Positions 1-58,169 of a stretch of DNA of 64,000 nucleotides are shown piece after piece. Source of the stretch: Puniceicoccus vermicola. Lineage in GTDB: Bacteria > Verrucomicrobiota > Verrucomicrobiia > Opitutales > Puniceicoccaceae. Below the pieces are notes generated by a model. It worked only from the letters and a program-made list of their open reading frames with translations. It made no database searches and was not told the DNA's origin. Position 1 is the stretch's first letter. Every line of letters starts with the position of its first letter. The position numbers and the translations under genes were made by a program. The stretch is from NCBI RefSeq assembly GCF_014230055.1, contig NZ_JACHVA010000126.1, positions 153,310 to 217,309 on the forward strand. The letters are read 5' to 3'.

Positions 1-507
1 TTCGTCACCGGTAACGTACTCCAATTGGTATGGACTCCCCTCTCGGCCGTAGAGCACCGTTGGTTTCCCGCTCTCCAGAATGCTGTTTAGCCATCTGGGC
101 GTCGATGCGACTAGGCTCGAAAGGACAACGTGAGCATGGGCCTCTTTGTTTGGAGTGATGTCCAAGCTGCTGTTTCCGCTATGATAGTTTTGGACGATAG
201 TGCTCCATCCAGCTTTTCCTAATGCTTTGGCCAGAGAAGCTTCTTTGGTGTCAATTGAGACCTTCGGGTAGAGATCTCGGTGAAATTCTATATATCGAGT
301 GCCTTTCTGCGAGTTGACGAAGACTCCGCTGCCGTGACGTATGGTGACCAGCCCTTCTGATTCCAGTTCGCGCAGGGCTATGTTTAGCGAATGCAAGCTT
401 GTTTGAAACTGCCGGATTAGGGTTCGGATCGAAGGAAGTTTTTGGCCTGGCGGGAGAGTTTCGATCTTTGAGCGTAGGCCCTGAATGAGAAATTCTGACT
501 TTTTCAT
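1..507 (-). CDS. GntR-family transcriptional regulator, C-terminus beyond window
   Basis: The reading frame is open from ATG at 507 to the window edge, giving 169 residues without a stop. Residues 1-65 form a GntR-type winged helix: the segment LPPGQKLPSIRTLIRQF is the usual start of the DNA-binding domain and LESEGLVTIRHGSGVFV is the wing. The following part (residues 75-169) resembles the start of a LacI/periplasmic-binding-type sensor domain (alternating beta and alpha, with VLYGRE near the end), as in GntR/LacI hybrid regulators; this part is inferred. It is divergent from the PEP-CTERM gene at 583 with 75 bases between, so it probably regulates module A and itself. Ligand unknown. Confidence 0.8.
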   Translation of the reverse strand, partial: MKKSEFLIQGLRSKIETLPPGQKLPSIRTLIRQFQTSLHSLNIALRELESEGLVTIRHGSGVFVNSQKGTRYIEFHRDLYPKVSIDTKEASLAKALGKAGWSTIVQNYHSGNSSLDITPNKEAHAHVVLSSLVASTPRWLNSILESGKPTVLYGREGSPYQLEYVTGDE

Positions 508-582
508 AACTGTTCGATACACTTTGTATGGAAATCTGTAAAATATATTTGACTGTTTCTTTTGTATTTTTTCTTCTGAGGC

Positions 583-1449
583 ATGAAAAATATCCCAGCC
601 TCCTCTCGTTCTATACTCTCAACCATCTGTGTGATTCTGACTTTAGCTTTAGTTTCCTCAGCATCAGTTTGTGCGCAAACTCCTCTGGCATGGTGGGGGT
701 TTGAAGGTAACACCACAGGCACCAATGGTTACGATTTGACCCCGGTCGGCACTTCAGCCAGCGCGTTCGATCCTCCTGCCTCCATGAGCTATGAGACTGC
801 CTCGGGGATTAATGCGGAGAATTCAGGTAGTCAGACCATCGGCTTTGACGGTTCCAGTGTTTTAAAAACCAATGACCCGGCTCTCCGTCTTGGGGGATCT
901 CAAACATTCTGGCTTCGTGTAAATCTCGAGACCATGCCCGCCAACATAGCCTTGATGACTCGCTCGCGTGCTCTAAACGGGAGCCGGGGCATCTCCTTGC
1001 AGTTAGTGAATGGAAAGGCTGCCGCCTATGTTTCCTCCGATGGTGATAGTTACGAAGTGGCACTGACCGATAATAGCTACACCTTGCAAACCGGTACATG
1101 GTATGACATTTCGCTAGTCTATGATGCGTCGAATAGTGTGGCGCTGTCGATCTATAGCCCCGAGACGGGGAATCTGATCAGCGCAGCTGAGACGACTTCC
1201 GATGTGCCCGCATCTATCTCGACGACGAACAATATCGGTAGCGGATATTTTCAAGTCGGAGCCATCAATAATGGTAGTGCCGGAAGCACATGGGCTGTTC
1301 CGGACGGAACACAGATTGAATCAGCGGGTGTGTGGGATTCTGCTTTGAGTGGGACGGATATCGCCCGGCTTTCTTCCATTCCTGAACCTGCCAGTTTTGG
1401 TCTGCTGATAGGAGTGTTGGGGGCCGCATGGTGTGTTCGCAGACGCTAG
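583..1449 (+). CDS. PEP-CTERM LamG-like (concanavalin-like) surface protein
   Basis: A 288-residue secreted protein. Residues 1-32 are a signal peptide ending SVCAQ. The middle, starting at LAWWGFEGNTTG, is a LamG/concanavalin-like beta sandwich typical of sugar-binding or cell-surface proteins. The C-terminus has the full PEP-CTERM sorting signal: IPEPASFG, a short hydrophobic helix and the basic end CVRRR. In known systems this tail is recognised by an exosortase and the protein ends up on the surface or in the exopolysaccharide. It is the first gene of module A, 42 bases ahead of the beta-helix gene. It has no visible catalytic motif, so a binding or structural role is most likely. Confidence 0.85.
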   Translation: MKNIPASSRSILSTICVILTLALVSSASVCAQTPLAWWGFEGNTTGTNGYDLTPVGTSASAFDPPASMSYETASGINAENSGSQTIGFDGSSVLKTNDPALRLGGSQTFWLRVNLETMPANIALMTRSRALNGSRGISLQLVNGKAAAYVSSDGDSYEVALTDNSYTLQTGTWYDISLVYDASNSVALSIYSPETGNLISAAETTSDVPASISTTNNIGSGYFQVGAINNGSAGSTWAVPDGTQIESAGVWDSALSGTDIARLSSIPEPASFGLLIGVLGAAWCVRRR

Positions 1450-1490: not shown

Positions 1491-3371
1491 ATGAAATATT
1501 TCCTTCTAGGATTCGTCCGGCTGGCTGCGATATTTTCAATAAGCCCTCTCTGCGCTACGACTTATTATGTAGATGGAGTAGTAGGCGACGACAGCCTCGA
1601 CGGTCTTGATCGCCGTCAAAGTCTTCGATCCATTCAGGAGGCCGCAAGTCGGGCTGTGCCAGGTGACGAGATATTGGTTGCAAAAGGGGTATATTATGGC
1701 CCTATCGAACTCGGAATTAAGGGCACAGTCGATCAGCCGATCAAACTGACTGCGGAGAGTCGGGAAGAGGGGGCTGTTGTCATTACCAGTGCGGATTATG
1801 ACCTCCGAGAGGGCCTAGAGCGATGGAACCTGGTCGACGAGAAACTGGGGCTTTATCAAGCGGGGTTAAACCGGCCAACTTGCCGGGTTCTGTATTCGGG
1901 TGTAGATTTGCAGCCCTATCATTCGTTGGATGGCTTGGAATCCTTTGTCACGAAAGAAGGAGATCCGGGGCCGAGGCACGGATATTTCTACGACGAAGCC
2001 TCTGAGAAAATCTATGTTCGGCTCCATGCTTCCGGGGAATATGGTTCGACTGACCCGAATGAGCATACCATGGCAGTGGGACCAAGGACGGGTGGGGGAT
2101 TTGCAGGGAATGCCTACAATGGGCCACTGTTCTACAATCTGGGACTTTTGGAGCGAGGAGAGAATCACGTTATTATCGATGGATTCACCTTCGAGACGCC
2201 GGGTTTTACCGGAGTCTACTGTAATGGTAGTCACGTGACGGTAAGGCATAGCTGGTTTTTGGGTTGTCGCAGTGGTGTCTCCGGGAGGAAAGAGTCTTCG
2301 GACGCTACTACCACCTCTAACTACATTACGATTGAGTATTGCGATTACTCGCAATACCCGGCCTTTGAAGATGCCTTGGAGCTGATGCGCTCGGCGAAAA
2401 AAGGTAGCTCAAAGTCGCTTCCGATCTATTGGTGGTCTCGCAAGGGGAATGGTGCCGGGAGTAATATGACTTACGAAACAGGCATGACGAATCTCACTGG
2501 AAAGGGCTGGGTTCTGCGCAATAACTACATCCATGATGCTTTTGAGGGATTGTCCACCTGGGCCGTTCGTTGGAGCATGGATCTGGAGATTTACGAGAAC
2601 GTATTCGAAAGGTTGGTAGACAATGCCATTGAGAGTGAGGATCACGCCTCGGGTATGGTTGTTCGAGACAACTTAATTGTGAACGTAATTGAGCCGCTTT
2701 CCTGGCAGCCTCTGGGTGGTAAGCCGTGGCCAGGACCTGTCTTCATTTTTCGTAATGTCATTCGTTCCGATGCATGGTTGAATGAATTGGTTGTGAACTC
2801 TTCGGGCTGGACCCCTGGTTGGTTTAAGGCTGGAGCCCCTTCCGGTAATTGGGAGGCTCCATGGAATGATCATATGAAAGGGCTCTCACGCGATTCGGTT
2901 CGTGCCGCTGGAGAAGGGGTAGTGGTTTTTAACAACAATGTTTTCTTTCCTCTGGGCTATTTCCTGACTCGGGTTCAGCCATCAAGTAGACAGTTCGAGA
3001 ACTTCTTCTTTTATAACAATCTTGTTCTGGCTAGTGCTTTTGGCAAAGCGCCTGATGAGACGATGCCCGTTGCGGAGTTCATGCACAATGTTTGGATTGA
3101 GTATATACCTAGTGATGAGGCAGGGGAGAGCTCAGTGCAGGGCAGTGTATTCTCGGGCGAGGGAGGGATCGCCTTGAGTTGCGTTGGGAAGAGTTGTCGG
3201 GAGTCTTACGAGCAAAAGTATTTTCTCAACGGTTCCTGTTGGGTGGGGCTGAGCGGGTCTCCGGTGCCTCAGGCCGCATTGGTCTATCCAGGTGCCGATT
3301 CGATTCACGAGATTGGCGCATCATTTGATGGCAAATCTTGGGAGTCACCTGTCGTTGGACCTCAGTGGTAG
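1491..3371 (+). CDS. Secreted right-handed parallel beta-helix protein, possible polysaccharide lyase or hydrolase
   Basis: A 626-residue protein with a signal peptide (residues 1-23, ending LCATT). The mature protein starts with YYVDGVVGDDSLDG followed by LRSIQEAASRAVPGDEILV, the classic opening of DUF1565/PL-type right-handed beta-helix enzymes. Residues about 220-480 carry repeated short strands with Asn/Gly turns such as VLRNNYIHDAFEG and VVRDNLIVN, consistent with stacked helix coils. This fold is found in pectate, alginate and chondroitin lyases and several glycosidases; no family-specific catalytic set is recognised here. It lies between a PEP-CTERM gene and a pseudopilin, with the pseudopilin start only a few bases after its stop, so the two are probably co-translated. 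Confidence 0.8.
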   Translation: MKYFLLGFVRLAAIFSISPLCATTYYVDGVVGDDSLDGLDRRQSLRSIQEAASRAVPGDEILVAKGVYYGPIELGIKGTVDQPIKLTAESREEGAVVITSADYDLREGLERWNLVDEKLGLYQAGLNRPTCRVLYSGVDLQPYHSLDGLESFVTKEGDPGPRHGYFYDEASEKIYVRLHASGEYGSTDPNEHTMAVGPRTGGGFAGNAYNGPLFYNLGLLERGENHVIIDGFTFETPGFTGVYCNGSHVTVRHSWFLGCRSGVSGRKESSDATTTSNYITIEYCDYSQYPAFEDALELMRSAKKGSSKSLPIYWWSRKGNGAGSNMTYETGMTNLTGKGWVLRNNYIHDAFEGLSTWAVRWSMDLEIYENVFERLVDNAIESEDHASGMVVRDNLIVNVIEPLSWQPLGGKPWPGPVFIFRNVIRSDAWLNELVVNSSGWTPGWFKAGAPSGNWEAPWNDHMKGLSRDSVRAAGEGVVVFNNNVFFPLGYFLTRVQPSSRQFENFFFYNNLVLASAFGKAPDETMPVAEFMHNVWIEYIPSDEAGESSVQGSVFSGEGGIALSCVGKSCRESYEQKYFLNGSCWVGLSGSPVPQAALVYPGADSIHEIGASFDGKSWESPVVGPQW

Positions 3372-3377
3372 ATCGTG

Positions 3378-4130
3378 ATGGACTATTTTGCATCTTCCAA
3401 TCAGATCCACCGAACCAGCGGGAAAATGAGGCGGAAAAACGGCTTCTCGTTAGTTGAATTGCTTGTCGTGATGGCGGTTGTCGGGCTGTTGGTGGCTATC
3501 ACTGTCCCTGTTATTCATTCCATGCGTAAACGCTCAGAAAATACGGAGTGTGCTTCGAAGCTTCGTACTCTCGGTCTCGCTGGTTTGAGTTGGATTAACG
3601 AGAACAACGGGAACATGCTTGATTCCATGTTTTGGCGTGCTCCCGTAGAGACGAATTCTGGAACGCTGTTGCCCTATCTCGGTTTTACCAATGACCAACT
3701 GGGAACGGAACAACCCACTCCGCTTTCATGCCCTGCCTCTTTCGCAGAGGTTGGTCCGAATCCTGATTGGAATCGGAGTTATTCGATCAATATTTACGCT
3801 TGCGCATCGGAAAATAATAAGCGCAAGGAAGATGGGCTCTACAGCCGTAATGTGACTAACATTTTTCAGATTGAGCAGCCCTCTAGAATGGCATTCTTTA
3901 TGGATGGAAACTTTCTTGCCTCGGGAGCCGCCGAACGTAAGGCCGGAGTTCAGAGCGTGTCCATCCCTTGGAACGAAAACACTAAGACGGGGTTCTACAA
4001 CCAGCACCCAGGGAATACATTCAATGTTGTTTTCATGGACGGGCACGTGGATTCTCTGACTTTAGAAGATTTGCCTACGGGCTCCGACGTTGAGAAACGC
4101 ACAAGTCCTTTCTTTGGGAGTCTGAGGTAG
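3378..4130 (+). CDS. Pseudopilin-like protein (prepilin-type cleavage/methylation N-terminus) with C-terminal F-x-D-G-H motif
   Basis: About 250 residues. The prepilin processing site is NGFSLVELLVV followed by a hydrophobic helix (residues about 21-48), as in type II secretion pseudopilins. The C-terminal part contains HPGNTFNVVFMDGHV, the H-x9-DG signature common in Verrucomicrobia, Planctomycetes and Lentisphaerae pseudopilin-like proteins. A GTG at 3375, the ATG at 3378, or the ATG at 3426 (MRRKNG) could be the start; 3426 would give the short leader usual for prepilins. It begins 6 bases after the beta-helix stop and ends module A. No secretion or pilus machinery is near, so it must rely on genes elsewhere. 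Its specific role is inferred, not known. Confidence 0.85.
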   Translation: MDYFASSNQIHRTSGKMRRKNGFSLVELLVVMAVVGLLVAITVPVIHSMRKRSENTECASKLRTLGLAGLSWINENNGNMLDSMFWRAPVETNSGTLLPYLGFTNDQLGTEQPTPLSCPASFAEVGPNPDWNRSYSINIYACASENNKRKEDGLYSRNVTNIFQIEQPSRMAFFMDGNFLASGAAERKAGVQSVSIPWNENTKTGFYNQHPGNTFNVVFMDGHVDSLTLEDLPTGSDVEKRTSPFFGSLR

Positions 4131-4971: not shown

Positions 4972-5529
4972 TTATTTCATGCGGCGGCGGTGAGCGAGTG
5001 TGAGAACGAGAGCGGCCAAGCCAGCGATCGCCCCGAAGGTCGAAGGTTCGGGGACGGCTCCGACTTCGAGGATAAAGCTGTCAGTGGAGTACCCCGGGTT
5101 GCCCGTAAAGGTGCCGTCGCCCGAACTCCAGAGTCCAGCGCTGACAAAGCCTGAGGTGGAGTTCAGCACCAGAGAGCCGGTCTCCTCGGGCGTCGTATAA
5201 CTAAACCCCACAAAATAGGCCTCGGAGGAATCGTAGTAGGCACTGTCGGCCACAAACGAAGTTCCGCCAACTGTTCCCGAAATCCCTTCATCCCCGACCA
5301 CGGCAATAAAGATGGCGTGCACCTCATTCGCGAAGCTTAAATCATATCCCCAATCCCAGTCGAAGGCGATCAGCGAACCTCGGTTGCTTCCCGGCCCCGC
5401 GGCGGTGCCGGAAATCGCGTAAGCCCCGGTGCTATTGTTGTATTCCAACGTAATGGCTGCCCCAGCGCTGGAACAGAAGAGACCTAAAGATGCGAGTCTG
5501 AAGGCAACGGACGTTTTCATTGCGATCAT
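4972..5529 (-). CDS. PEP-CTERM secreted protein
   Basis: A 185-residue protein with an N-terminal signal peptide (start at 5529 or at the ATG at 5520, MKTSVAFRLASLG) ending near AGAAITLEY. The body is a small beta-rich domain of unknown family. The C-terminus is a PEP-CTERM sorting signal: VPEPSTFGAIAG, a hydrophobic helix and HRRRMK. It is downstream of the esterase at 5589 on the same strand with 59 bases between, so it may be the last gene of the module B run, or be separately expressed. No catalytic motif is visible. Confidence 0.82.
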   Translation of the reverse strand: MIAMKTSVAFRLASLGLFCSSAGAAITLEYNNSTGAYAISGTAAGPGSNRGSLIAFDWDWGYDLSFANEVHAIFIAVVGDEGISGTVGGTSFVADSAYYDSSEAYFVGFSYTTPEETGSLVLNSTSGFVSAGLWSSGDGTFTGNPGYSTDSFILEVGAVPEPSTFGAIAGLAALVLTLAHRRRMK

Positions 5530-5588: not shown

Positions 5589-6335
5589 CTATTCGGTGAA
5601 CGGCTCTACGGATGGCTCAAGCATCAGCATCTTCTCGGCGTAGCGCTGTCCGAGGAGGATCATGCTGTCGTGGTCGAAGTGCCATCGGTCCATGGCGGTC
5701 AGGCCTTGATTGGAGACGACGGCGGTGTGCTCCACTACACTGGGTAGCTGGAGGATCAGCTGATTGAAGAGGTAGTCGCCGGAGGTGTTGATCTGTCCGG
5801 CAATGAAGGGAATCTCGGGGGCATCCAGGTCTTCACGGAAATTGCGGATGAGCTGGCTGATTTTGTCGAGATAGGCGGGGTCGTTGGCGTTGGCCTCGCC
5901 TTGATGCCAGAGGATTCCTCGAAGCGTGCCATCTTTCAGTGCGATCTTGGTCCGGCGAAGGGCTTCCTGGTAGTATTCACTGTCGCGGGACCATTCTTCT
6001 ATTTTACTCCCTCCGCGAGCATTCACGACCAGCCCCAGTTCTCGTTCAGGTTGGGCCTCCCTCATTGCCAGAGAGAAGCTGTATCCGGGGTTCATTTTTT
6101 GCATGCTTAGATCCTTGCGGATCGTTGAGTAGCGGTTCAGGGGGTTGCTGGCTGGTTCCCATAGGTCTTCGCTATCCAAGAGAAAGACACCGGGGATTTC
6201 ATGTGCATCAACTGGCGTATACGGTGCACGTCCAGCCATGTTCGATTGACCGATCAGCAAATAGAGATCGAGTTCCTTGGCGGTAACACTCGCGAGCGGG
6301 AGGAGGGCGATGAGGAGGATTTTGAATGATTTCAC
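5589..6335 (-). CDS. SGNH-type carbohydrate acetylesterase (SASA/CE6-like)
   Basis: A 248-residue secreted enzyme. Residues 1-19 are a signal peptide ending SVTAK. LYLLIGQSNMAG (residues 25-35) supplies the nucleophile Ser31 of the SGNH fold; GGSKIEEW and WHQGEANAND provide the other conserved blocks, the latter carrying the His/Glu region typical of SASA (sialate O-acetylesterase-like, CE6) proteins. Such enzymes remove acetyl groups from plant or microbial polysaccharides. It follows an alpha/beta-hydrolase and a GH1 enzyme on the same strand, so it probably helps de-acetylate the oligosaccharides handled by module B. The length is typical of short CE6-type proteins. Confidence 0.85.
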   Translation of the reverse strand: MKSFKILLIALLPLASVTAKELDLYLLIGQSNMAGRAPYTPVDAHEIPGVFLLDSEDLWEPASNPLNRYSTIRKDLSMQKMNPGYSFSLAMREAQPERELGLVVNARGGSKIEEWSRDSEYYQEALRRTKIALKDGTLRGILWHQGEANANDPAYLDKISQLIRNFREDLDAPEIPFIAGQINTSGDYLFNQLILQLPSVVEHTAVVSNQGLTAMDRWHFDHDSMILLGQRYAEKMLMLEPSVEPFTE

Positions 6336-6365
6336 AGCGATTTTGATTCGGTGGGGTTTTCCGGG

Positions 6366-7184
6366 TCAGAATCCGATTTCGCGCAACCAGCGTTCTGCCA
6401 GTGCCCTCCATTGTTCGACGGCGCCTTGCCGCCGAAAGTCGAGGGAGCAAATGCCCAGACCGTGAGAACCTTTGGGAAATACGTGAGCTTCGTGGGGGAT
6501 TCCTTTCTCCTGGAGTCTTAGGGCCATGCGATAAGCGTTCTCGACAGGCACTGTGGCGTCTTCTTGCGTGTGCCAGATGAATGTGTCCGGGGCTTTCGAG
6601 TGGATCCTTTCGGGCCAATTGAGCTCCTCGGAGATAGAGGAGTTGGCGAACCCATTCCCGAGCAGGTTGTGCATGCTTCCCCGGTGGGCAAAGGGGCCCT
6701 GGGTATTTAGGACGGCATAGGCCAGGATGCAGGCGTCCGGTCGGGCCGGTATGGTTTGCAACGTCTGATCAGGATCGAGGAGCCAATCTTCTCGATCGAA
6801 GCCATTCGCGGTGCAGGCCGCGAGGTGCCCACCCGCGGAGAACCCAATGACTCCGATTTTCGATTCGTCGAGATTCAGATTCTCCGCTTGCTGGCGAAGC
6901 CACCGAAGCGTGTAGAGAGCCTGTTGTTGGGGGGCGGGATAGATCGTTTGATTCCGGTTCCCGCGGCTGACCGTGTAATCCAAAACAACGGCGGAGATCC
7001 CGATCGAGTTCAGCCAGGCGGCGACCGGAGGTCCTTCCGAGTGAACGACATCCTCATATCCTCCGCCGGGTAAAACGAGAAAGCAGGGAAAGCGCTCCCC
7101 ATCCTCGAGGAGATGAAGGCCCAGGCGTGCCTGCGAGAGCACGAGATCGTCGGGGTGGAGTTTGTGAGAAGACTCGTTAGACAC
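6366..7184 (-). CDS. Alpha/beta-hydrolase, probable acetyl-xylan or carbohydrate esterase (BD-FAE-like)
   Basis: About 272 residues using a GTG at 7184 that overlaps the GH1 stop codon by a few bases, which suggests translational coupling; the longer frame from 7265 would overlap GH1 by 89 bases and adds unconvincing sequence. The fold markers are FLVLPGGGYE (oxyanion region), GVIGFSAGGHLAA (nucleophile elbow, Ser), HTQEDATVPVENA (acid Asp) and PKGSHGLGIC (catalytic His). There is no signal peptide, so it acts in the cytoplasm, probably on imported acetylated or feruloylated sugars. It resembles the esterase/lipase group (Aes, BD-FAE) often found in xylan utilisation loci. Confidence 0.85.
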   Translation of the reverse strand: MSNESSHKLHPDDLVLSQARLGLHLLEDGERFPCFLVLPGGGYEDVVHSEGPPVAAWLNSIGISAVVLDYTVSRGNRNQTIYPAPQQQALYTLRWLRQQAENLNLDESKIGVIGFSAGGHLAACTANGFDREDWLLDPDQTLQTIPARPDACILAYAVLNTQGPFAHRGSMHNLLGNGFANSSISEELNWPERIHSKAPDTFIWHTQEDATVPVENAYRMALRLQEKGIPHEAHVFPKGSHGLGICSLDFRRQGAVEQWRALAERWLREIGF

Positions 7185-8592: not shown

Positions 8593-8609
8593 ATCGATGA
8601 GGGGATGGG

Positions 8610-10088: not shown

Positions 10089-10098
10089 GAAGCGATGC

Positions 10099-11511: not shown

Positions 11512-11513
11512 AT

Positions 11514-16462: not shown

Positions 16463-17209
16463 TTAGCTTTTTCTGCGGCGACGAACTGACGCAATTGCTG
16501 CGAGGCTAACGATTCCGAAGGCGATCGCTGCCTGGCTCGGTTCTGGGATGGCATTCACCGTGATGTTGTCAAGCCGGATGACGTGATTGGAATTGAGGCT
16601 GCCATCGCTGGTGACGTAAGTGTATAGGCGAAAGGTGATCGTGGAGTCGATGTCTTGGAAGCTGCTGATGTCGGCGGAGAATTCACCCGTTCGGTTCGAT
16701 CCTGAATTCGCATCAGTAGAAGGTGTTGAAATGCTGCCTGTGCCGATGTTGGAAACGAATCCATCTTGGCTGGAGCGGAGGAGGTAATGAGCTTCGAATG
16801 AATTTCCTGGATCCGAGCTACTAATGACTTGAGCAGTGATATCAGCAGTAAGGGTTCCAAAGTCAGTAGCTGAGCTCGGAGTCAGCGTGAATTCAAAGTA
16901 AGTCTGTCTCGTGTCGACGGCAATGCTTTCACTGGTGCCGAGGATGCGATCGCTTCCACCCGGTGCTTGAAATACCCGAGCAAAGAGGTCTTGTCCGCCT
17001 GAGGAACGAGTATAAGTGTTGCCGCTGGGTGAAAAACCACTGAAAGATCCGTATGAAACAGCAGATGCTGTGATGCCGGGTGCCTCTTCAGTGGCTTCGA
17101 GATTCGAGCTGAAGTCCCATTGGGCCAAAATTTGGGCATGAGCAATGGGCGCTGAAAGAGCCAGCGTGGCGATCAAGGCTGAGGTGTAGATGCAGGATGT
17201 CGTTTTCAT
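16463..17209 (-). CDS. PEP-CTERM secreted protein
   Basis: A 248-residue protein with a signal peptide ending APIAHAQ. The mature part begins ILAQWDFSSNLEATEEAPG, a start shared by many PEP-CTERM proteins with a beta-sandwich similar to LamG or to the exoenzyme-linked SdrD-like folds. The C-terminus has the sorting signal IPEPSQAAIAFG, a hydrophobic helix and VRRRRKS. It is the second gene of the module B run, between the pseudopilin (38 bases upstream) and the lyase (128 bases downstream). No active-site motif is visible; a surface binding or scaffold role is inferred. Confidence 0.85.
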   Translation of the reverse strand: MKTTSCIYTSALIATLALSAPIAHAQILAQWDFSSNLEATEEAPGITASAVSYGSFSGFSPSGNTYTRSSGGQDLFARVFQAPGGSDRILGTSESIAVDTRQTYFEFTLTPSSATDFGTLTADITAQVISSSDPGNSFEAHYLLRSSQDGFVSNIGTGSISTPSTDANSGSNRTGEFSADISSFQDIDSTITFRLYTYVTSDGSLNSNHVIRLDNITVNAIPEPSQAAIAFGIVSLAAIASVRRRRKS

Positions 17210-18132: not shown

Positions 18133-18141
18133 AAATTGGGT

Positions 18142-33728: not shown

Positions 33729-33761
33729 TCGATGGAGTGGACGGAGGGAAGAGAGTAGGGG

Positions 33762-37671: not shown

Positions 37672-37696
37672 AGCCACAGTCGTTAACGGATTGCCT

Positions 37697-38623: not shown

Positions 38624-38673
38624 GCGAAAAAGATGGGTAGTAAATTGGCGGAGGTCAAATAAAAATAAAAAAT

Positions 38674-41958: not shown

Positions 41959-42372
<414 letters not shown>

Positions 42373-48807: not shown

Positions 48808-48847
48808 AGTACTTAACTGTTTCAGTGATCAAAGATTTGAAGTACTT
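48807..48847. promoter_or_regulatory. Paired AAGTACTT palindromes, candidate module E operators
   Basis: AAGTACTT occurs at 48807-48814 and 48840-48847, 33 bases centre to centre, about three helical turns. The first overlaps the LacI start codon, the second sits 25 bases before the sulfatase ATG. The arrangement fits cooperative binding by a dimer-of-dimers repressor. Confidence 0.5.
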
Positions 48848-48871
48848 TCTCGTCAATGCAATAAGGTTTGT

Positions 48872-50281: not shown

Positions 50282-50301
50282 TGCTAACCCAAAACACTCC
50301 T

Positions 50302-51084
50302 ATGAAAACGAACCTCAATCTCCGACTATTTTCTCCACATCTGCTGTCGATTCTAACCATCTTGACAACCGGACATCTTCTCTCCGGTTCGGTGTTGATC
50401 GACGATGACTTTGAGGAGTATGCAGCAGGAGGTCCCCCGACCTCTCCTTGGACAAGCAGCTCCAATATCACTGTCAGCAGCAACGTAAATGCTCAATCCA
50501 CTTTTGGCCCTTCAGGCGACACCCAAGGCATGCGGAGTCGCAATTTAAATGGGTCTTTTACACCGGAGGCATCCGTTGAAATCGATAGCAGCGGCGAGAG
50601 CTACTCTATATTGAAGATTCAATTCGATTACATGTTTGTCACCCAACAAGGGAATCCCCAGTTCATTCTTGAGGGAGATAATGGAACCAATGGAATCCGA
50701 ATGATGCTCACAACAACAAACGGATATGTTTCAGTTCGTGAAGGTAACAGCTTCAATGAACTCACTGGGGGAATGTCTCTCTCGGCGAATAACTGGTACC
50801 GATTTACTCAATCTATTGATATCGGTTCCTCGACTTTTTCTCTAACTGTGGAGGAATTCGGGGGCACCACTGTAACCACACCCGACTTGTCATTTGAAAA
50901 CAGCATTAGCAATCCAACTGAAGCAGTCTTCAATTACAACGCTCCGATTTCCTCTACTGGAGGTGAGTACTTTATCGACAATGTCTTCATCGAGACGATA
51001 CCGGAACCCGGAAGTGCGTCACTTTATCTTGGGGTAATGTCGGTCATTGTCGTTACCTTCCTTCGGCGACGCAATCATCGCTGA
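50302..51084 (+). CDS. PEP-CTERM secreted protein (module E)
   Basis: About 260 residues from the ATG at 50302 (MKTNLNLRLFSPHLL), 20 bases after the sulfatase stop. The signal peptide ends LLSGSVLI. The body (DDDFEEYAAGGPPTSPW, RNLNGSFTPEASVEIDS, LKIQFDYMFVTQQGNP, ANNWYRFTQSIDIGSSTF) is a concanavalin-like beta-sandwich, also seen as the first domain of the 1201-residue protein downstream. The C-terminus has IPEPGSASLYLG, a hydrophobic helix and RRRNHR. It is 54 bases ahead of the pseudopilin. Confidence 0.88.
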   Translation: MKTNLNLRLFSPHLLSILTILTTGHLLSGSVLIDDDFEEYAAGGPPTSPWTSSSNITVSSNVNAQSTFGPSGDTQGMRSRNLNGSFTPEASVEIDSSGESYSILKIQFDYMFVTQQGNPQFILEGDNGTNGIRMMLTTTNGYVSVREGNSFNELTGGMSLSANNWYRFTQSIDIGSSTFSLTVEEFGGTTVTTPDLSFENSISNPTEAVFNYNAPISSTGGEYFIDNVFIETIPEPGSASLYLGVMSVIVVTFLRRRNHR

Positions 51085-51138
51085 CCGCATAGCGATGAAC
51101 CATTGGCTTTCCGCCGCTTGTCTTTTGATACAGTGGTA

Positions 51139-51867
51139 ATGAGTCGTCTGCGGCTTCAGGTGCATATGAGACCTTCGTTCAGGAAACACGGCTTCACCTT
51201 GATCGAACTATTGGTCGTGATGGCTGTCTTGGGTATTTTGACTGCGATCTTGCTGCCAGTTTACAGCTCGATCCGAAACAAGACCCAATCAACTGTCTGT
51301 ATTAGTAATTTGCGACAGATTGGGGCCGCTTTCTCGACCTACAAAATCGACAACAAGGGAAATCTACCTGCGGTCGGATTCCCGGGTTCATCATCGGTCG
51401 GGGAGTGGTTTAAGTCGGATTTTTTCACCTATCTCAGCGATGGAATTGCTTTTAACGACTATCCTTTCGAAAAGAAGGAAACCTCTAGCGGCGTAGCCCC
51501 GTTCAACAATAGTCCGCTCTTTTGCCCGGCCTGCGATCCCGAGGATTCAATTAAACCCTACGGTGTGAACCTGTGGCTGTGGCAATCTCAACGTTCCTAT
51601 CCTATCAATCCTATGCCACTTCCCGATCCTGCAAAGACTATGCTCGTCGCAGACAAAGAGGGTCATCTCTCGTACATCAACAGTCCCTCTAATATGAGCT
51701 CAAATTCCGAATCGAAACTGTCGGACCGACATAATGGTTTCACCAATGTCCTATTTTGCGACGGTCATGTCTCCTCGATTCCTTATCGTGAGATAATCGA
51801 AAAACACCATGACATTACTGACCCATTCTGGGGCTGGGGAGCTTTAGTCCGACCTTCTGGAGACTGA
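51139..51867 (+). CDS. Pseudopilin-like protein (module E)
   Basis: About 242 residues from the ATG at 51139 (MSRLRLQVHMRPS); the ATG at 51166 would give a shorter leader, and a TTG at 51103 is unlikely. The prepilin site is HGFTLIELLVVMAVLGILTA, followed by STVCISNLRQIGAAFSTY. The C-terminus has LSDRHNGFTNVLFCDGHVSS, the full H-x9-D-G-H signature. It is 4 bases ahead of the 1201-residue secreted protein, so the two are probably co-translated, as with module A. Confidence 0.9.
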   Translation: MSRLRLQVHMRPSFRKHGFTLIELLVVMAVLGILTAILLPVYSSIRNKTQSTVCISNLRQIGAAFSTYKIDNKGNLPAVGFPGSSSVGEWFKSDFFTYLSDGIAFNDYPFEKKETSSGVAPFNNSPLFCPACDPEDSIKPYGVNLWLWQSQRSYPINPMPLPDPAKTMLVADKEGHLSYINSPSNMSSNSESKLSDRHNGFTNVLFCDGHVSSIPYREIIEKHHDITDPFWGWGALVRPSGD

Positions 51868-51871: not shown

Positions 51872-54800
51872 ATGCGTGCTCCTTTTCAAAATATTTCCCG
51901 CTCTACTCTAGGATGCTTGATCGTAATTATTGGAGTAGTGATCCTTCCTCATCTTTATGCTGAATCTAACTCGATATTGGTTGAAGAGAACTGGGAAGAT
52001 TTCGATTTCGATGCTACCTTGAGCTTTCCATGGTCAACGAAATCCGATGACAAGAGCCGTATTGGTATTGTTCGAGGTCGTAGTTATTTCGGAGATGGGG
52101 AGGCTCTCGTACGAGTCGAAGACAGCTCTTCTGCCATAAATCCCTCTTTGACCGCTTCGATCCATCATAGCAAAAAACAGCCCTTGCTCATTGAATTCGA
52201 CTGGATGGTTCCTGAAATCAACGATTCCAGCCCTTCCGTGCTACTGGAGAGCAACCGCCCGCAGGCTAGAGGAGCGATCAAGGCTCAACTCCTGATCGCT
52301 CGAAACAAAGATGACAATTTTCGTCGTTGGATCACTGTTCATACTGACACTGGATTGCTTCCCTTGGTTCCTTTCACGGAGGGAGATTGGTACCGCATTC
52401 AAATGGAGATTCCAACTGTCGAAGGGAGGGCGATGAATTTAATGATTAAACAGCAGGAGCGGTCTCCGCAAGTGTTTCAGCAAATCCCAATGCGGAATCC
52501 GAATGAACTTATCGATCAGATTCGATTTCTCGATAACACCCCTGCAGATCAAACATGCAGTTTCTACATCGACAACTTTCGAGTTTCTATTCTGGAGACT
52601 GGGCAGTGCGGCCATAGTTTTGATCGATATCGTTTGTATATCCCAAATCAATCTTTCGAAGTCGGACAGGGATCTTGGTATGCAGCAAGCTACTATGGAG
52701 CGGGCCTGGAAATTACCCGTTCGGAAGACGCAGTAGATGGTCAATACAGTCTCCAGATTGCAAGCCGTGAACCCGAATCGACTAGCAATTTCGACTCGCC
52801 AATTTTAGACTGGCCCCACAATCGTCCCGTTCAATTGCGATTTTGGATAAAAGGTTCGTTCGATTTGGATGGGAGTCAGGCTCGCGTGGAATTAACGAGC
52901 AAGAACTGGGGTAGGCCTGAATCGAATTTCTGGGATTTTGAACTGACCCATAATTGGCAACAGCATACGATCAAGATCCCTGCGATTGAGAATAACGACG
53001 AAGACTGGAGAATACGGTTTCGCATCCCGTCGCAGGGCTGGATTCGTCTCGATGGTATCGAGATGATTGAAGAGCCTTTCGCTACAGCGCCTGCACTTAT
53101 TGACCCTGAGATTGAGCTGACTTGGGAGAGTGGGATATCCTTTGTCTATCCAGAAGAAATCGCTCGCCTTCACGTTCGAGTCGGTCCGCTGGAAGACCAA
53201 GAACCTCCCCGCCTTTCCGGATCAATTCTGAATGACAAAGGTCTTATCACGCAATTGCCACCGTCCCGCTGGGTGATGGATGGACGCATCGCGGAAACCA
53301 TTATTGATTTCGGAACTCGGCCAATCGGCCTCTACAATCTCGACATTCGAATCAATGATGCCGACGGAAACCTTCTCGCAGATGCTCAACCATCTTTTGC
53401 TTGTATACATCGACATGGAGAAGGCGAGCCATGGGTTGGTATCTTCGTGTCAAACAGCCGACTGAATTCAGACGTAGGCCCCTCGCTCGCGAAGATAGGA
53501 ATTCCCTTCGTTCGTCGTGGTGCCTCTCTATCCTGGCACATTCGGAAGGGAAAAAGACCTGGCGAATGGAAAAGTTTTGATGTTGTTCGGGAAGAATTAC
53601 GTGAGAATGGGCTGAAGGAGCTAGCAATCCTCGAAGGTGCTCCCCGTTCGATTCGAAAACTCTACGGAAATGCTGCCGGACGCTGGCATCGCATTTTAGG
53701 CCTGCATTGGACTCAGGGTCTTAGAAAAGAGTGGGAAAACTATGTTGAAGCATTGGCGGTCAATGATGCAGATTTCTGCGGGTACGAATCGTGGAACGAA
53801 ACCAATGCAAACTCCTACTTTCTCGGATCCACGAGTACGGTCGCTGACATGCTTGAGGCCAATCGCGAGGCGCTCAATCGGGCGGGCATTTCCCCAGATC
53901 ATCCTGTTTTGGGTCCAACAACTTCCCACATCCCTCAAGTCTATATTCGCAACGTCTTGGGCCAAGTTGCGCCGGGAACCGTTGATGGTGTGAGTATCCA
54001 TCCCTACCGAAACGGTCGAGGGATTCCCGAGAGTACGGGCTATGCGTATGAACTTGATGAGCTTCGTAAAACGATGTTCGAGGTCGGACTTGGGGATGGA
54101 CATATCTGGGCTACGGAACTTGGGATTTCAAGCTCTGATCTCCCACGGCTCGAACAGGCTGGATTAAAGCCATTCACGGGTCTGGGTTCTGCGAGTAGCC
54201 ATCGAGCTTTCCCTCCAGATGATGAAGTCGCAAATTATGTGCTACGTGCTTTTATCATGGGTCTGACCCGGGGTGTTGACCGGCAGTTCTATTTTTTGTG
54301 GGCCGACCTTCCGAGAACTCATCTGAAAATGGGGCTCGTCCGCGGCGACAGACCTTCCAGTCCCAAGATGCAAGCGCTATCCGTCAGCGTTCTACAATAC
54401 CTTTTCAACGGCGCAACTTTTTCACGTACTCTACAAGAAACACCTCCGCTTTACGTCTATACCTTTCTAAAAGGGAAACGCCAAATTGTTGCAGCTTGGT
54501 CCCAAGAAGGGCGTATCAGTGCACAACTGGGTCCTCTCGGGAATGCGCGGTTTATGGATCGATTCGGTCGCCCTTTGACTCACTCTAAGATCGTCACTCT
54601 CAGCGAAGCCCCAATATTCATCGAAACGGATGCCGGTGACCCCGTAGATCTCAAGCCGATAACCGCACCGGTCGACGAACCTTTTATCTTGATTCAGAAC
54701 CAGCCGATTTCGATATCTTTGGATCTGACAGCACAGGATAGCTTATCCCAGTTGGTGGATGTCAGCTGCCCATCCACAGAAGGTGAGAGTTGGGATCCCT

Positions 54801-55477
54801 GGCCGCTGGAAGTTATTGACTGGCGTATTGAAGGCGATCAACTGCTCGTTACTGTAATTCCTTCGAGCAATGAATTCAGTGGATTCGGATTCAGCGAGCT
54901 TTCCCTCCAGACCCCGACCGATGAATTCTTTGTTTCCGTTCCTGTAAAAATCACAACTGGCGGTAGTGCCAGAGCGCCCCTCGATCTATTGCCCAATCCC
55001 GGTTTGTTTTTACAAAGCACCGATCAAGCCGCCACAGTTGAGACCGAGGGGAATAGCTTTGTCATGACTGTCCTGCCAGTTCCTGACTACTGGGGTCCCC
55101 GCTTCGAGGGCGCCTTTTTGTTACCGCCGACTCCCGATATCACGGGCTATGAACAAATTTCATTTGAGGTGATGACTCTGGAACCGACCCTAAATATGCA
55201 AATGCGTATCCTGATGAAATCAATAGACGGGACAGTTTATAAGAGCTGGGTTCAGCCTGATGTCCTTACGTCGAAAGATAAGTGGCAGAAAATCACGATT
55301 CCCCTCAATACGTTTTATTTGACCAAGCTTTCGCGAGAATTCCAAGAGCCGCAACAACCGCGCTTGGAAAGCATTCAATCCATTGCCATTTCCGTGAACG
55401 GCAACGATCCCAAATCGGGAACCAAATTTCGAGTTCGATCCGTTCGGCTTGAGCCCCGCAAATTGAGCAACGAGTAG
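51872..55477 (+). CDS. Large secreted clan A glycoside hydrolase-like protein with beta-sandwich domains
   Basis: A 1201-residue protein with a signal peptide ending HLYAES. Residues about 35-225 form a concanavalin-like sandwich, about 240-405 a CBM_4_9-like jelly roll (SFEVGQGSWYAASYYGAG, VQLRFWIKG), about 410-505 a short beta domain. Residues about 520-880 look like a (beta/alpha)8 barrel: FCGYESWNETNANSY with probable acid/base Glu643, VSIHPYRNG, and HIWATELGISSSD with probable nucleophile Glu749. Residues about 900-1200 are two more beta domains, the last CBM-like. It resembles GH39/GH5-type enzymes but I cannot place it in a family. It lies between a pseudopilin and a sulfatase, so a sulfated polysaccharide is the likely substrate. 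Confidence 0.72.
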   Translation: MRAPFQNISRSTLGCLIVIIGVVILPHLYAESNSILVEENWEDFDFDATLSFPWSTKSDDKSRIGIVRGRSYFGDGEALVRVEDSSSAINPSLTASIHHSKKQPLLIEFDWMVPEINDSSPSVLLESNRPQARGAIKAQLLIARNKDDNFRRWITVHTDTGLLPLVPFTEGDWYRIQMEIPTVEGRAMNLMIKQQERSPQVFQQIPMRNPNELIDQIRFLDNTPADQTCSFYIDNFRVSILETGQCGHSFDRYRLYIPNQSFEVGQGSWYAASYYGAGLEITRSEDAVDGQYSLQIASREPESTSNFDSPILDWPHNRPVQLRFWIKGSFDLDGSQARVELTSKNWGRPESNFWDFELTHNWQQHTIKIPAIENNDEDWRIRFRIPSQGWIRLDGIEMIEEPFATAPALIDPEIELTWESGISFVYPEEIARLHVRVGPLEDQEPPRLSGSILNDKGLITQLPPSRWVMDGRIAETIIDFGTRPIGLYNLDIRINDADGNLLADAQPSFACIHRHGEGEPWVGIFVSNSRLNSDVGPSLAKIGIPFVRRGASLSWHIRKGKRPGEWKSFDVVREELRENGLKELAILEGAPRSIRKLYGNAAGRWHRILGLHWTQGLRKEWENYVEALAVNDADFCGYESWNETNANSYFLGSTSTVADMLEANREALNRAGISPDHPVLGPTTSHIPQVYIRNVLGQVAPGTVDGVSIHPYRNGRGIPESTGYAYELDELRKTMFEVGLGDGHIWATELGISSSDLPRLEQAGLKPFTGLGSASSHRAFPPDDEVANYVLRAFIMGLTRGVDRQFYFLWADLPRTHLKMGLVRGDRPSSPKMQALSVSVLQYLFNGATFSRTLQETPPLYVYTFLKGKRQIVAAWSQEGRISAQLGPLGNARFMDRFGRPLTHSKIVTLSEAPIFIETDAGDPVDLKPITAPVDEPFILIQNQPISISLDLTAQDSLSQLVDVSCPSTEGESWDPWPLEVIDWRIEGDQLLVTVIPSSNEFSGFGFSELSLQTPTDEFFVSVPVKITTGGSARAPLDLLPNPGLFLQSTDQAATVETEGNSFVMTVLPVPDYWGPRFEGAFLLPPTPDITGYEQISFEVMTLEPTLNMQMRILMKSIDGTVYKSWVQPDVLTSKDKWQKITIPLNTFYLTKLSREFQEPQQPRLESIQSIAISVNGNDPKSGTKFRVRSVRLEPRKLSNE

Positions 55478-55558
55478 TGCAATGGTTCCTGTATGGAGGT
55501 ATACTTACAAAGAACGAGCGGAGGATTAGCCTCAGAGCAAGAGTAGACGACTGAATCC

Positions 55559-57109
55559 ATGGATAAAAGAACTCCTTTCAATGTCCTGATGATCTTGGCG
55601 GATCAGATGAATGCCAATTGGCTTGGCTGTGCTGGGCATCCTCAAGCTCAGACTCCAAATTTGGACGCGTTTGCGGCTTCGGGCATTCGATTTACCGAAG
55701 CTCATTGTCAGAACCCAATCTGTACGCCGAGCCGAGTTAGCATCCTTTCGGGACAATACTGTCAAAATCACGGCTACTACGGGCTTTCCGGTCCTGCGCC
55801 GAAGGGCTTAAACAATCTATTTCGGCATTTTGGTCGCCAGGGATATCGGACCGCCGCCTATGGTAAACTACACCTTCCAGAGGCTCCGCGAAACTGGATT
55901 GCTGACGACGTCGATGTCTTTGGGGATTCCTATGAAAATGCGGACGGTGTTTTCGGGGCATCTTCTTTTCTGGAAGATCTAGAACGAAAAGGTCTACGCC
56001 ACTTGGAGGACAGCTGGCATAACTTGCAAAACTACGGGAAGCCGAGCATCCCTATCGACGCGATGCCCTCGGAGTTACCGCTTGAAGAAACTCAGGAAAT
56101 GTGGTGCGCACGCGAAACGATGGATTTTATTCTAGATTACATCGATCACCCTTTTTGTGTCCAAGTTGCCTTTCAGAAGCCGCATCATCCATTGCTCCCA
56201 AATATTCGCTTTTGGAATCAGTATCCGTCCGATCTGGAGCTTCCTGCTGATTGGGATGTATGCCAGTCACATCGTGCTCCCCATTTCCAAAAACGTTGGC
56301 GAGAATGGCGCGATTACCCACCCGAATTTGGGCACAGCGACGATACATTCGAGGACTTCGTGCGTCGATGCTGGAGGGGGACTCTCGCCTGTGTCAGCCA
56401 AATCGATTACGTCTTTGGACAGTTGATGGAGTTTTTACGCGTCAACGACTTAGAGAAAAACACCATCGTCATTTTCGGCAGTGACCATGGAGCGTATCAC
56501 GGCCATATGGGAATATTGGAAAAAGCTCCGGGAATCTGTTCGGACCAAGTTTGCAAAGTTCCCTCGCTCTGGCGTGTGCCTGGATTGACCCGAGGTGGGA
56601 GCTGCTGTAGCCAACTAGTCGAAAATATCGACATGACTTCAACGTTATCCTCCTTGTGTAATCTTCGGGAGTTTGACTCTGGGGATGGCAAAGACCTAAC
56701 GGGGCTGTTGGGCGGTGAAGACTATCCAGTTCGCGATGTATCCGTGACAGAAAATGTTTGGAGTAAAGCTCTGCGCTGGAAGCATTGGCGATTCGTTCAC
56801 TATCAAGAAGAGTGTTTTCCTGGGGAAGACGTCGGAGAGCTCTATAACCTGCTCAACGATCCTCAGGAGACCCGCAATCTCTACAAGGACCCATCCTATC
56901 GCAACGTGGTCGAAGACTGTCGCCGCCAGTTGCTAGAGTGGTTGATACGTACTCGGCGTACCGTCACGACGCAGTGTTCCCTTAGCGATGAAGTCCACCT
57001 TGCAACTCCTGGTCACCGTAGCTGCATCTATCCGCTGGGTGGGGATGGAACCGCTCCTAATGCGGCTCAGGCTTACAATCGATCCGACATTCACGAAATG
57101 TATCGCTAA
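55559..57109 (+). CDS. Sulfatase, S1 family (formylglycine type)
   Basis: A 516-residue sulfatase. FNVLMILADQMNANWLGCAG starts the fold, NPICTPSRVSILSGQ is the maturation signature with Cys55 as the residue converted to formylglycine, and GSDHGAYHGHMGILEKAP carries the downstream metal ligands. It has no evident signal peptide. It differs from the first module E sulfatase in the Asp pair (ADQ instead of ADD), which suggests a different subfamily and substrate position. It follows the 1201-residue protein by 81 bases and precedes the GH43/GH117-like gene by 4. Confidence 0.92.
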   Translation: MDKRTPFNVLMILADQMNANWLGCAGHPQAQTPNLDAFAASGIRFTEAHCQNPICTPSRVSILSGQYCQNHGYYGLSGPAPKGLNNLFRHFGRQGYRTAAYGKLHLPEAPRNWIADDVDVFGDSYENADGVFGASSFLEDLERKGLRHLEDSWHNLQNYGKPSIPIDAMPSELPLEETQEMWCARETMDFILDYIDHPFCVQVAFQKPHHPLLPNIRFWNQYPSDLELPADWDVCQSHRAPHFQKRWREWRDYPPEFGHSDDTFEDFVRRCWRGTLACVSQIDYVFGQLMEFLRVNDLEKNTIVIFGSDHGAYHGHMGILEKAPGICSDQVCKVPSLWRVPGLTRGGSCCSQLVENIDMTSTLSSLCNLREFDSGDGKDLTGLLGGEDYPVRDVSVTENVWSKALRWKHWRFVHYQEECFPGEDVGELYNLLNDPQETRNLYKDPSYRNVVEDCRRQLLEWLIRTRRTVTTQCSLSDEVHLATPGHRSCIYPLGGDGTAPNAAQAYNRSDIHEMYR

Positions 57110-57113
57110 CGGA

Positions 57114-58169
57114 ATGGCCAACAGTTCGATAAATAGGGAGAATGGTTTTCAAGCACGGGACCTTCCGCCCAAGGTTGAATCTGATTTTTGCCGTCGTTTG
57201 AGATACATTGGGAGAATTCTTGAAGATTCGAACTATTTCGTGTGGTGCTGTTCACCGATTTATGGCCCGGGAGGCTCCGTCCATGTCTACTATTCCCGCT
57301 GGCCCCGAGCTACGGGGTTCGGGGGATGGTTAACTCACTCTGAAATTGCACACGCTGTAGCGGAAGACATTGCAGGTCCTTATGTGTTCACCGATATTGC
57401 TCTTGCCGGGCGCGGTCTCGAATTTTGGGATGCCTGTACGGTTCATAATCCGACCATTCATCGTGTTGCCGATCAATATGCCCTTTTCTACATGGCCAAT
57501 AGATTTGAGCCCTGTGCCGACCGCGAGCAAGCAATTCGGTCCAAGCGGATAGGCGTCGCATTGAGCAATTCCTTGTATGGACCGTGGAAGCGTATGGATT
57601 TTCCGTTGATTGATGCTGGCTCGCCTGACTCTTGGGACGAAATTCTCGTTAGTAACCCCTCATTCGTCGAAGACCGAAACGGATCATTCAAACTCTACTA
57701 CAAAGGCGTTGACCGGATTTCATGGGAAAAATCTCACGGCAACCGGAAATATGGCGTAGCCACCGCTGGCAAATTAGAGGGTCCTTACACAAAATACGCA
57801 GCGAATCCGATCATCGACCTATCCGTCTATGGGGAGTCCTACGAATGTGAAGATGCTTTTATTTGGCAAGATGTTGAGGGCTATCATGCCATCATGCGCG
57901 ACATGGGCCTATTTGGTGACCGGTATGGTATTTATATGAGATCCCATGACGGGATAGCTTGGGGGGATCCTCAGGTAGGATACCGTCCTTCCACATCCTA
58001 CACACGAGAACCTCCCAACGGATTGTCGAGAGAAGGACGATTCGAACGTCCTCAGATTCTCTTTAGAGACAGCAAACCAACCCATCTTTTCGTCGCTTTT
58101 CGCGGGGGCGAAAGCCTCGGTTCGACTGCAGCGGTGCTGGAGATTCGAAACTCTGATTCTGACGAATAA
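57114..58169 (+). CDS. Five-bladed beta-propeller glycoside hydrolase (GH43/GH117-like)
   Basis: About 351 residues from the ATG at 57114 (MANSSINRENG), 4 bases after the sulfatase stop; the frame opens at 56988 but that would overlap the sulfatase. It shares the block order of the protein at 29190: FVWCCSPIYGPGGSVHVYYS, WLTHSEIAHAVAEDIAGPYV, FWDACTVHNPTIH, SKRIGVALSNSLYGPW and LVSNPSFVEDRNGSFKLYYK. Here YECEDAFIW replaces the FEDPF block. No signal peptide. In GH117 this group releases 3,6-anhydro-L-galactose; with two sulfatases near, a sulfated galactan is plausible but unproven. Confidence 0.85.
   Translation: MANSSINRENGFQARDLPPKVESDFCRRLRYIGRILEDSNYFVWCCSPIYGPGGSVHVYYSRWPRATGFGGWLTHSEIAHAVAEDIAGPYVFTDIALAGRGLEFWDACTVHNPTIHRVADQYALFYMANRFEPCADREQAIRSKRIGVALSNSLYGPWKRMDFPLIDAGSPDSWDEILVSNPSFVEDRNGSFKLYYKGVDRISWEKSHGNRKYGVATAGKLEGPYTKYAANPIIDLSVYGESYECEDAFIWQDVEGYHAIMRDMGLFGDRYGIYMRSHDGIAWGDPQVGYRPSTSYTREPPNGLSREGRFERPQILFRDSKPTHLFVAFRGGESLGSTAAVLEIRNSDSDE

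Follow-up and report, generated by a model that had tools for sequence, protein, structure and literature searches.

Five times within one stretch of Puniceicoccus vermicola DNA, a single type IV pilin-like gene stands among carbohydrate enzymes together with a gene for a PEP-CTERM protein and a regulator. This recurrence raises the question of whether the pilin and PEP-CTERM genes belong to the carbohydrate loci and what they would do there. The stretch, hereafter the window (64,000 nucleotides, G000:C126:153310-217309), lies at the end of a 217-kb contig in a genome of 5.2 Mb (143 contigs, 96% complete); G000 denotes this genome, other G-numbers its relatives, C a contig and L a fetched neighbourhood. 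Pfam searches found the genes where the original prediction, made from the letters, had placed them, namely five pilins with PEP-CTERM genes, one LacI or GntR type of regulator and distinct enzymes. The window holds five pilin-like genes, six PEP-CTERM genes and five full LacI genes. Every module has its PEP-CTERM gene, although the number is six and not five and the copy of module 3 lies three genes away from the pilin. Judged by Pfam matches, the enzymes are a mixture of lyases, glycoside hydrolases, esterases and sulfatases, and the set differs from module to module; a local regulator with clustered carbohydrate enzymes, a trait of the loci centred on SusC/SusD (SusCD), was found in 5/5 modules.

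The linkage was evaluated over the whole genome, in which a scan gave 54 N-methyl, 64 PEP-CTERM (E up to 1) and 52 LacI matches. Based on Pfam alone, with the PEP-CTERM places shifted 1000 times along the contigs, a PEP-CTERM match was found within 1 kb of 6 of the 54 pilins (mean of the shifted sets 2.1; 25/1000 shifts), within 2 kb of 12 (4.0; 0/1000), within 4 kb of 14 (7.5; 20/1000) and within 8 kb of 26 (13.5; 0/1000). This signal is modest partly because PF07589 misses several PEP-CTERM tails. Since the variants IPET, IPES, IPEL and IPEV escape Pfam, a wider C-terminal pattern was used; it was written after viewing the tails of the neighbours and is therefore tuned on these loci, and it matches 2 of 312 control genes, one evidently by chance. 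Pilin neighbourhoods outside the window were compared with 18 control stretches, with gene calls from a simple non-standard caller that set some starts wrongly.

The 54 pilins fall into two kinds. Thirty-six are of the H-X9-DG kind, with a D-G-H type end, and 18 are other pilins, 13 of which stand in groups of two or three consecutive pilins; one minor pilin on contig C139, which resembles those of the type II secretion system (T2SS) and matched D-G-H by chance, was moved from the first kind to the second (37 to 36 and 17 to 18). Of the 36 H-X9-DG pilins, 18 have a PEP-CTERM-like gene as their immediate same-strand neighbour, versus 3.7 for random genes of the same loci; the counts rise to 25/36 up to two genes away with the strand still shared (6.9 random) and to 28/36 within three genes on either strand (14.8 random). 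None of 5000 random draws of same-locus genes attained any of these values. For the 18 other pilins the counts at the same three distances were 0, 1 and 1. In the 18 adjacent pairs the PEP-CTERM gene lies upstream of the pilin in 12 and downstream in 6, and the gap is below 200 bases in 16. The pilins are thus not scattered independently in this genome.

Regulators follow the same division. A LacI or AraC gene was found within 4 kb of 20/36 H-X9-DG pilins, versus 9.2 for random positions on the same contigs (0/2000), and of 0/18 other pilins. We then took the 105 neighbours within two genes (15 of them window genes), leaving out pilins, PEP-CTERM-like genes and genes below 120 amino acids. The 90 non-window neighbours gave 11 Peripla_BP_3, 10 AraC, 5 LacI and 4 GntR matches, as well as 4 GH5, 3 CBM4_9, 3 CBM9, 2 sulfatase and 2 GH2 matches, among the top 25 of 104 Pfam families, and 90 of the 272 control genes gave no family with more than two matches. 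Seven of nine hand-picked neighbours, chosen mostly by size, match carbohydrate enzymes or carbohydrate-binding modules (GH2, GH5 twice, GH42 twice, CBM4_9 and CBM9, with one GH5 and one GH42 under the Pfam cut-off), and two match neither. A crude count of export signals, too rough to carry weight, gave 36/57 same-strand neighbours of at least 300 amino acids versus 60/145 control genes.

A profile of the 36 pilins matches in 35/35 genomes, P. vermicola included, and also catches other pilins (46 matches in P. vermicola). Large sets occur in some genomes only: 21 and 30 matches in two of the same genus, 41 in G023 and 24 in G026, both of other families; all 10 genomes of the G023 family hold 27-75 matches each. 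From the better-scoring matches listed, 100 neighbourhoods in eight related genomes were taken, and 91 pilins passed the score and motif filter. A PEP-CTERM-like gene is adjacent to 28 of them, within two genes on the same strand of 40 and within three genes of 60. Adjacency exceeds that of random same-locus genes in G023 (7/15) and G039 (8/18), each with 0/2000 draws, and weakly so in G036 (3/9; 57/2000) and G042 (2/4; 68/2000). The excess within three genes is smaller, 60 versus a random sum of about 39, and the draws attaining the observed value range from 4 (G023) to 1636 (G040) of 2000. A LacI-like gene lies within four genes of 35/91 pilins, a count without control made with a profile from the window genes alone.

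The original prediction had held the accessory types to be constant. They are recurrent, and linked in P. vermicola, but in the relatives pairing is above chance in G023 and G039 and not in G001, G002, G026 and G040; within three genes, a PEP-CTERM gene accompanies 2/10 sampled pilins of G026 and 1/7 of G040. This variable pairing makes the PEP-CTERM gene a frequent and not an obligatory member of the loci. It also leads to a reading, compatible with the mechanism proposed below, in which two partnerships are superposed: a core of pilin, regulator and enzymes, and the PEP-CTERM gene as an optional addition. G026 and G040, whose pilin sets are expanded and whose sampled pilins rarely or never have a PEP-CTERM neighbour, point in this direction, and G026, on short contigs, has 12 PEP-CTERM matches genome-wide versus 40-105 in the other seven genomes. 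However, G040 has 85 such matches and was sampled at 7 of its 45 pilin matches, and close pilin relatives usually keep the PEP-CTERM gene (21/30, see below). We hold this reading tentatively, at somewhat less than an even chance.

To follow inheritance, reciprocal-best pairs between genomes were formed from 136 pilins of nine genomes and the neighbours within five genes were compared. Among the 30 pairs with at least 50% pilin identity, 24 have a PEP-CTERM gene on both sides, 21 a homologous PEP-CTERM gene and 26 another homologous neighbour; at 35-50% identity (67 pairs) the values are 49, 33 and 18, and below 35% (66 pairs) 29, 2 and 1. Neighbour keeping is graded with pilin identity, and pilin identity therefore tracks module identity. 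Of the 30 close pairs, 14 join genomes of one genus, 4 join genomes of the G023 family and 12 join genomes of different families; a homologous PEP-CTERM gene was kept in 8/14, 4/4 and 9/12, respectively. Recent copying within the genome was ruled out as the main origin of the P. vermicola pilins: the closest sampled relative is in another genome for 28/36 and in the own genome for 8/36, with a median identity of 41% to the closest pilin elsewhere versus 33% to the closest own paralogue. As an example, the promoter-side part of module 2 recurs in G023, a genome of another family (L113), in the order of a symporter, one gene, a lyase, a PEP-CTERM gene, a pilin and a divergent LacI-type gene; identities are 80% for the symporter, 56% for the lyase, 37% for the PEP-CTERM protein and 55% for the pilin. 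A protein of 437-485 amino acids is encoded directly upstream of the pilin in L017, L021, L129, L132, L114, L156 and L157; the L021 copy has no Pfam match, and a PEP-CTERM gene precedes it in all of these neighbourhoods except L157.

These data bear on an explanation without any joint function, in which pilin and PEP-CTERM genes would pile up in those variable parts of the genome where carbohydrate loci also lie. Both families are large and paralogous, nine of the G023 pilin-profile matches (contig C1), among the matches listed, carry an in-frame stop, which suggests gene decay in this otherwise pilin-rich genome, and transfer of pseudopilin genes was inferred in the available part of a study of a relative (PMC13274419). 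We consider this explanation highly improbable, since the pairing is absent for random same-locus genes and for pilins of the other kind, neighbour keeping is graded with identity, 9/12 close pairs between families keep a homologous PEP-CTERM gene, and in the same study a pseudopilin operon appeared co-induced on alginate.

All five window pilins pass the cut-off of PF07963 (N_methyl, prepilin cleavage and methylation) and show a C-terminal D-G/M-H/S motif in the alignment. They lie at 3375-4130 (+, module 1; E 6.4e-8), 17248-17982 (−, module 2; E 1.2e-6), 27157-27825 (−, module 3; E 8.6e-8), 36991-37767 (−, module 4; E 4.3e-6) and 51103-51867 (+, module 5; E 5.8e-9). TIGR04294 is passed by two of them, 17248 (21.7 bits, cut-off 19) and 51103, and PF07596 by one; in the three below the TIGR04294 cut-off the alignment shows a related D-G/M-H motif. 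The pilins resemble the H-X9-DG/DUF1559 pseudopilins (TIGR04294, PF07596) of the Planctomycetes-Verrucomicrobia-Chlamydiae (PVC) bacteria in their N-methyl start, D-G-H end and large paralogous families, and differ from them in being tied to carbohydrate loci. Conservation reaches about 2.5 bits per column over the first 40 residues versus 1.3-1.8 in the head, and all 36 aligned H-X9-DG pilins share the Glu of the N-terminal helix. For the predicted structure of the module 5 pilin, the type IV pilin PilA4 ranked first, although Foldseek with this model gave no match at E <0.001, carbohydrate-binding or other.

Known pilin classes were compared by score. The window pilins were ruled out as the T2SS subunits GspG (26.5-42.5 bits versus a cut-off of 88.85) and GspH (at most 27.1 versus 80), and, being on C126 whereas the T2SS operon is on C118 (L038), they are not encoded in that operon as the minor pseudopilins GspH-K are. 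They have weak N-terminal similarity to TIGR02596 and TIGR02599 of the Verru_Chthon cassette, which we take from the family names to be pilin-like proteins named after the Verrucomicrobia; membership was ruled out by scores of 28.1 bits versus 70 and 19.8 versus 256.5, respectively.

In all six PEP-CTERM proteins of the window the C-terminal PEP motif, the hydrophobic stretch and the basic tail are visible. The Pfam match is sub-threshold in four of the six, three of which pass the cut-off in the genome scan: 583-1449 (+, module 1; 19.0 bits, cut-off 20.7), 4972-5529 (−, 3′ end of module 2; E 7e-4) and 22693-23877 (−, module 3; E 4.8e-4, with a CBM96 domain at E 1e-13). The fourth, 37697-38680 (−), directly upstream of the module 4 pilin, has 19.3 bits for TIGR02595 (cut-off 16), a model passed by 2/5 of the proteins tested (50281 was outside that set). 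The proteins at 16463-17209 (−, module 2) and 50281-51084 (+, module 5) have no Pfam match and were recognised by eye from IPEP, a hydrophobic stretch and an RRR tail; the latter is encoded directly upstream of its pilin and its tail is kept in the relative P0122. The module 1 protein also has a weak LamG/ConA-like match (Laminin_G_3, E 7e-4, under its cut-off). Pfam on 28 PEP-CTERM partners gave 11 PEP-CTERM, 2 Laminin_G_3 and 1 CBM96 matches and five other families with one member each; because few partners match binding domains, a glycan-binding role is only hinted at. Searches of solved-structure sequences gave no match up to E 5 with a profile of the 28 proteins and only matches of E 1.4 or worse with a single one. 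Exosortases are present in 23/35 genomes; P. vermicola has three matches over the cut-off and a fourth under it.

The original prediction had stated that secretion machinery and SusC/SusD were lacking. The window loci indeed hold no secretion-machine genes (Pfam on the window proteins), but as a statement on the genome this was ruled out by a T2SS operon on contig C118 (GspF, GspE and a secretin over the cut-off, GspK sub-threshold) and by eight T2SSE-type ATPase matches over the cut-off, one of them within that operon. Because this operon, the ATPases and the exosortases are encoded elsewhere, the pilin does not have to function on its own; one shared machine for dozens of locus pilins amounts to a many-to-one arrangement. 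The SusD family PF07980 gave no match in the genome, with a positive Bacteroides control and other SusD families not searched, and there are two TonB receptor matches. One of the two receptors (L009, G000:C5:3335-4603) is encoded about 2 kb upstream of a pilin of the H-X9-DG kind. A functional replacement of SusCD, as originally proposed, fits the missing SusD, with a putative role in uptake or binding; the interpretation as a whole is partly supported.

From the gene linkage, its excess over chance here and the joint keeping across genomes, all of which are observed, we infer a mechanism to which we give about even odds of being right: the pilin of each locus would plug into a type II secretion or pilus machine common to the loci, and the enzymes of the same locus would be exported or held at the surface. 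The regulator would sense a sugar of one polymer and switch the locus on. The pilin would be processed by the prepilin peptidase and assembled by the C118 T2SS, or by a pilus system, into a short fibre whose tip it would occupy as a minor subunit; there its variable head would recognise, select or position the enzymes of its own locus or the glycan. An exosortase would sort the PEP-CTERM protein to the surface, and the glycan would be bound there. The set would capture each substrate and degrade it at the surface, as loci centred on SusCD do in Bacteroidota. A bolder version, which we regard as doubtful, is a combinatorial secretion in which the shared machine would serve dozens of interchangeable cassettes, each made of a sugar-switched pseudopilin adaptor, an exosortase-anchored glycan receptor and enzymes, and by which a SusD-less bacterium would rebuild its surface for each polysaccharide.

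The machinery is also consistent with a role other than enzyme export. The presence of only one of the eight ATPase matches in the C118 operon and the first rank of PilA4 would suit pilins that build or decorate glycan-catching type IV pilus-like fibres pulling the polymer to the cell, and in two Planctomycetes pili-like fibres were the main place where gold-labelled dextran was seen (PMC5394234). This appears unlikely to us, because a single pilin per locus suggests a minor subunit rather than a fibre, the fibre proteins are unnamed in the available part of that paper, and the Foldseek search gave no significant match. The pilin might even work without a fibre, as a membrane-tethered helper or sensor of its own locus, for example a periplasmic scaffold for enzymes; the concentration of conservation in the N-terminal helix and the lack of machine genes in the window loci would agree with such a role. 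However, an invariant Glu in this helix is expected of assembled pilins, and its occurrence in 36/36 makes a role without assembly distinctly improbable.

Several observations weigh against the proposal that the pilins act as adaptors for the export of their own enzymes. The link from pilin to machine to cargo is a putative one, and the sulfatase at 55559 and the GH1 protein show no signal peptide by eye. For all 54 pilins, the linkage to LacI genes with Pfam only is weak (11 versus 7.0 within 4 kb, 79/1000 shifts; 17 versus 11.7 within 8 kb, 32/1000), and an operator-like palindromic repeat sought in five spans was present in one and absent from four. Among the relatives, adjacency of a PEP-CTERM gene is not above chance in G002 (6/20; 236/2000) and G001 (2/8; 563/2000) and is 0/10 in G026 and 0/7 in G040. 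Fourteen of the 30 close pairs are from one genus, where plain synteny could preserve neighbours and thus account for part of the neighbour keeping. At the cut-offs used, no homology was detected between the LacI-type gene of module 2 and that of L113. The module 2 lyase recurs (47-50% identical) on three contigs of Opitutaceae metagenome-assembled genomes (3.6-13.7 kb), and neither a pilin nor a PEP-CTERM gene is visible on them. One H-X9-DG pilin without a PEP-CTERM gene in P. vermicola is kept beside a gene without obvious carbohydrate role, which encodes a protein of 550-581 amino acids, in five genomes (L036, L130, L154, L112 and L147; the protein starts with MTKPVYIFGHKNPD in L036). Finally, the model of the module 5 PEP-CTERM protein was unusable (mean pLDDT 44; 3 sequences).

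The remaining genes of the modules were assigned by Pfam. Module 1 consists of a regulator, the PEP-CTERM gene, a beta-helix protein and the pilin. The regulator (GntR and Peripla_BP_3, −) lies mostly outside the window, which contains its 5′ part at 1-507 (full span −563 to 507; L231:4247-5317); the beta-helix protein (1491-3371, +; Beta_helix E 3.9e-6) is a putative polysaccharide lyase. Module 2 lies on one strand apart from its divergent LacI regulator (18136-19272, +), with the pilin first and a second PEP-CTERM gene last. Between the pilin with its PEP-CTERM neighbour and that last gene are a CBM4_9 protein with an alginate-lyase/heparinase-like lyase (13287-16334, −), the sodium:solute symporter (SSF) kept in L113 (11514-13271, −) and, within 5589-11517 (−), an FAD oxidoreductase, an ADP-ribosyl-GH protein, a GH1 protein, an alpha/beta hydrolase and a SASA acetylesterase, in this order.

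Module 3 has a divergent LacI regulator (28141-29154, +) followed by a GH43 protein (29151-30212, +). On the other strand, the pilin is followed by a GH16-like protein with Golvesin_C (24912-27062), a second LacI regulator (23784-24842), the PEP-CTERM protein with CBM96, a beta-helix protein (20292-22043) and a protein without assignment (19342-20286). The divergent LacI regulator of module 4 (38780-39880, +) precedes a GH10 protein (40029-41354, +); the opposite strand carries the PEP-CTERM gene, the pilin and, within 30252-36472, a GH39-like protein, a polysaccharide deacetylase-like protein, a heparinase II/III-like lyase and a SASA esterase. Module 5 runs on the plus strand from its divergent LacI regulator (47767-48807, −) through a sulfatase (48713-50281), the PEP-CTERM gene and the pilin to a 1201-residue protein with a glycan-binding-domain match, a second sulfatase and a weakly GH43-like protein under the cut-off (together 51872-58169).

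Between modules 4 and 5 lie a tmRNA gene (41992-42372, −; tag AKDKVISFPGAAPEAMAA) and a DUF748 protein of 968 amino acids (44599-47505, +; E 3e-152). At the contig end (62499-63951), a LacI-type DNA-binding protein of 194 amino acids without a sugar-binding-domain match stands beside an IS3-type transposase (rve, HTH_21) and may be a transposon-truncated regulator.

The closest published case, Verruconatronum alginivorum AB-alg1, also belongs to the Opitutales. Its operon pgaptmp_000046-60 combines a pulG-like pseudopilin with polysaccharide lyases and an SSF transporter and appeared upregulated as one operon on alginate, with one replicate per condition (PMC13274419, AEM 2026). The available part of this paper reports 67 pseudopilin homologues in the genome and suggests that the T2SS exports the lyases; it mentions neither PEP-CTERM nor exosortase, contains no LacI in the main text and does not describe pilins as being paired across the genome with PEP-CTERM genes or with regulators. 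It is close prior art for operons of pilin and lyases and independent support for their co-induction. DUF1559 proteins are described among the largest families of Planctomycetes, with a domain that appears exclusive to PVC (PMC4807772), and 65 proteins of the PEP-CTERM/exosortase (EpsH) sorting system in Verrucomicrobium spinosum (PMC1569441). The proteins described here share with that system the C-terminal P-E-P, the hydrophobic stretch and the basic end, in a genome with exosortases; the system was tied to exopolysaccharide production in the available part of PMC1569441, whereas here it lies beside degradation loci and pilins. Compared with the SusC/SusD loci of Bacteroidota, the modules likewise group regulator, enzymes and surface proteins by substrate, but in a genome without SusD (PF07980). 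A lack of SusCD in Verrucomicrobiota has been published (PMC8857213, PMC11980603), and TonB uptake and vesicles were proposed (PMC11980603). The pairing of pilin and PEP-CTERM genes was not found in the open-licence literature, where pseudopilin and PEP-CTERM together with Verrucomicrobia returned nothing and PulG with PEP-CTERM returned Geobacter only; the available parts of PMC5615132 and PMC6388578 contain no pilin, PEP-CTERM or secretion wording.

The linkage is real, recurrent and statistically strong in P. vermicola and variable in its relatives, and its pilin half is partly anticipated in print. New within the open-licence literature is that the pilins are paired with PEP-CTERM genes and sugar-type regulators across the genome, that they contrast in this with the machinery pilins, and that neighbours are kept module by module. 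How SusCD-less Verrucomicrobiota handle large polysaccharides was named as future work in the available part of PMC8857213. For this question, the linked and co-inherited set of pilin, sorted protein, regulator and enzymes names concrete genes to knock out. The pilin expansions of the order become a testable hypothesis of cargo adaptors, and the pilin set offers a marker for substrate loci where callers of polysaccharide utilization loci based on SusCD fail.

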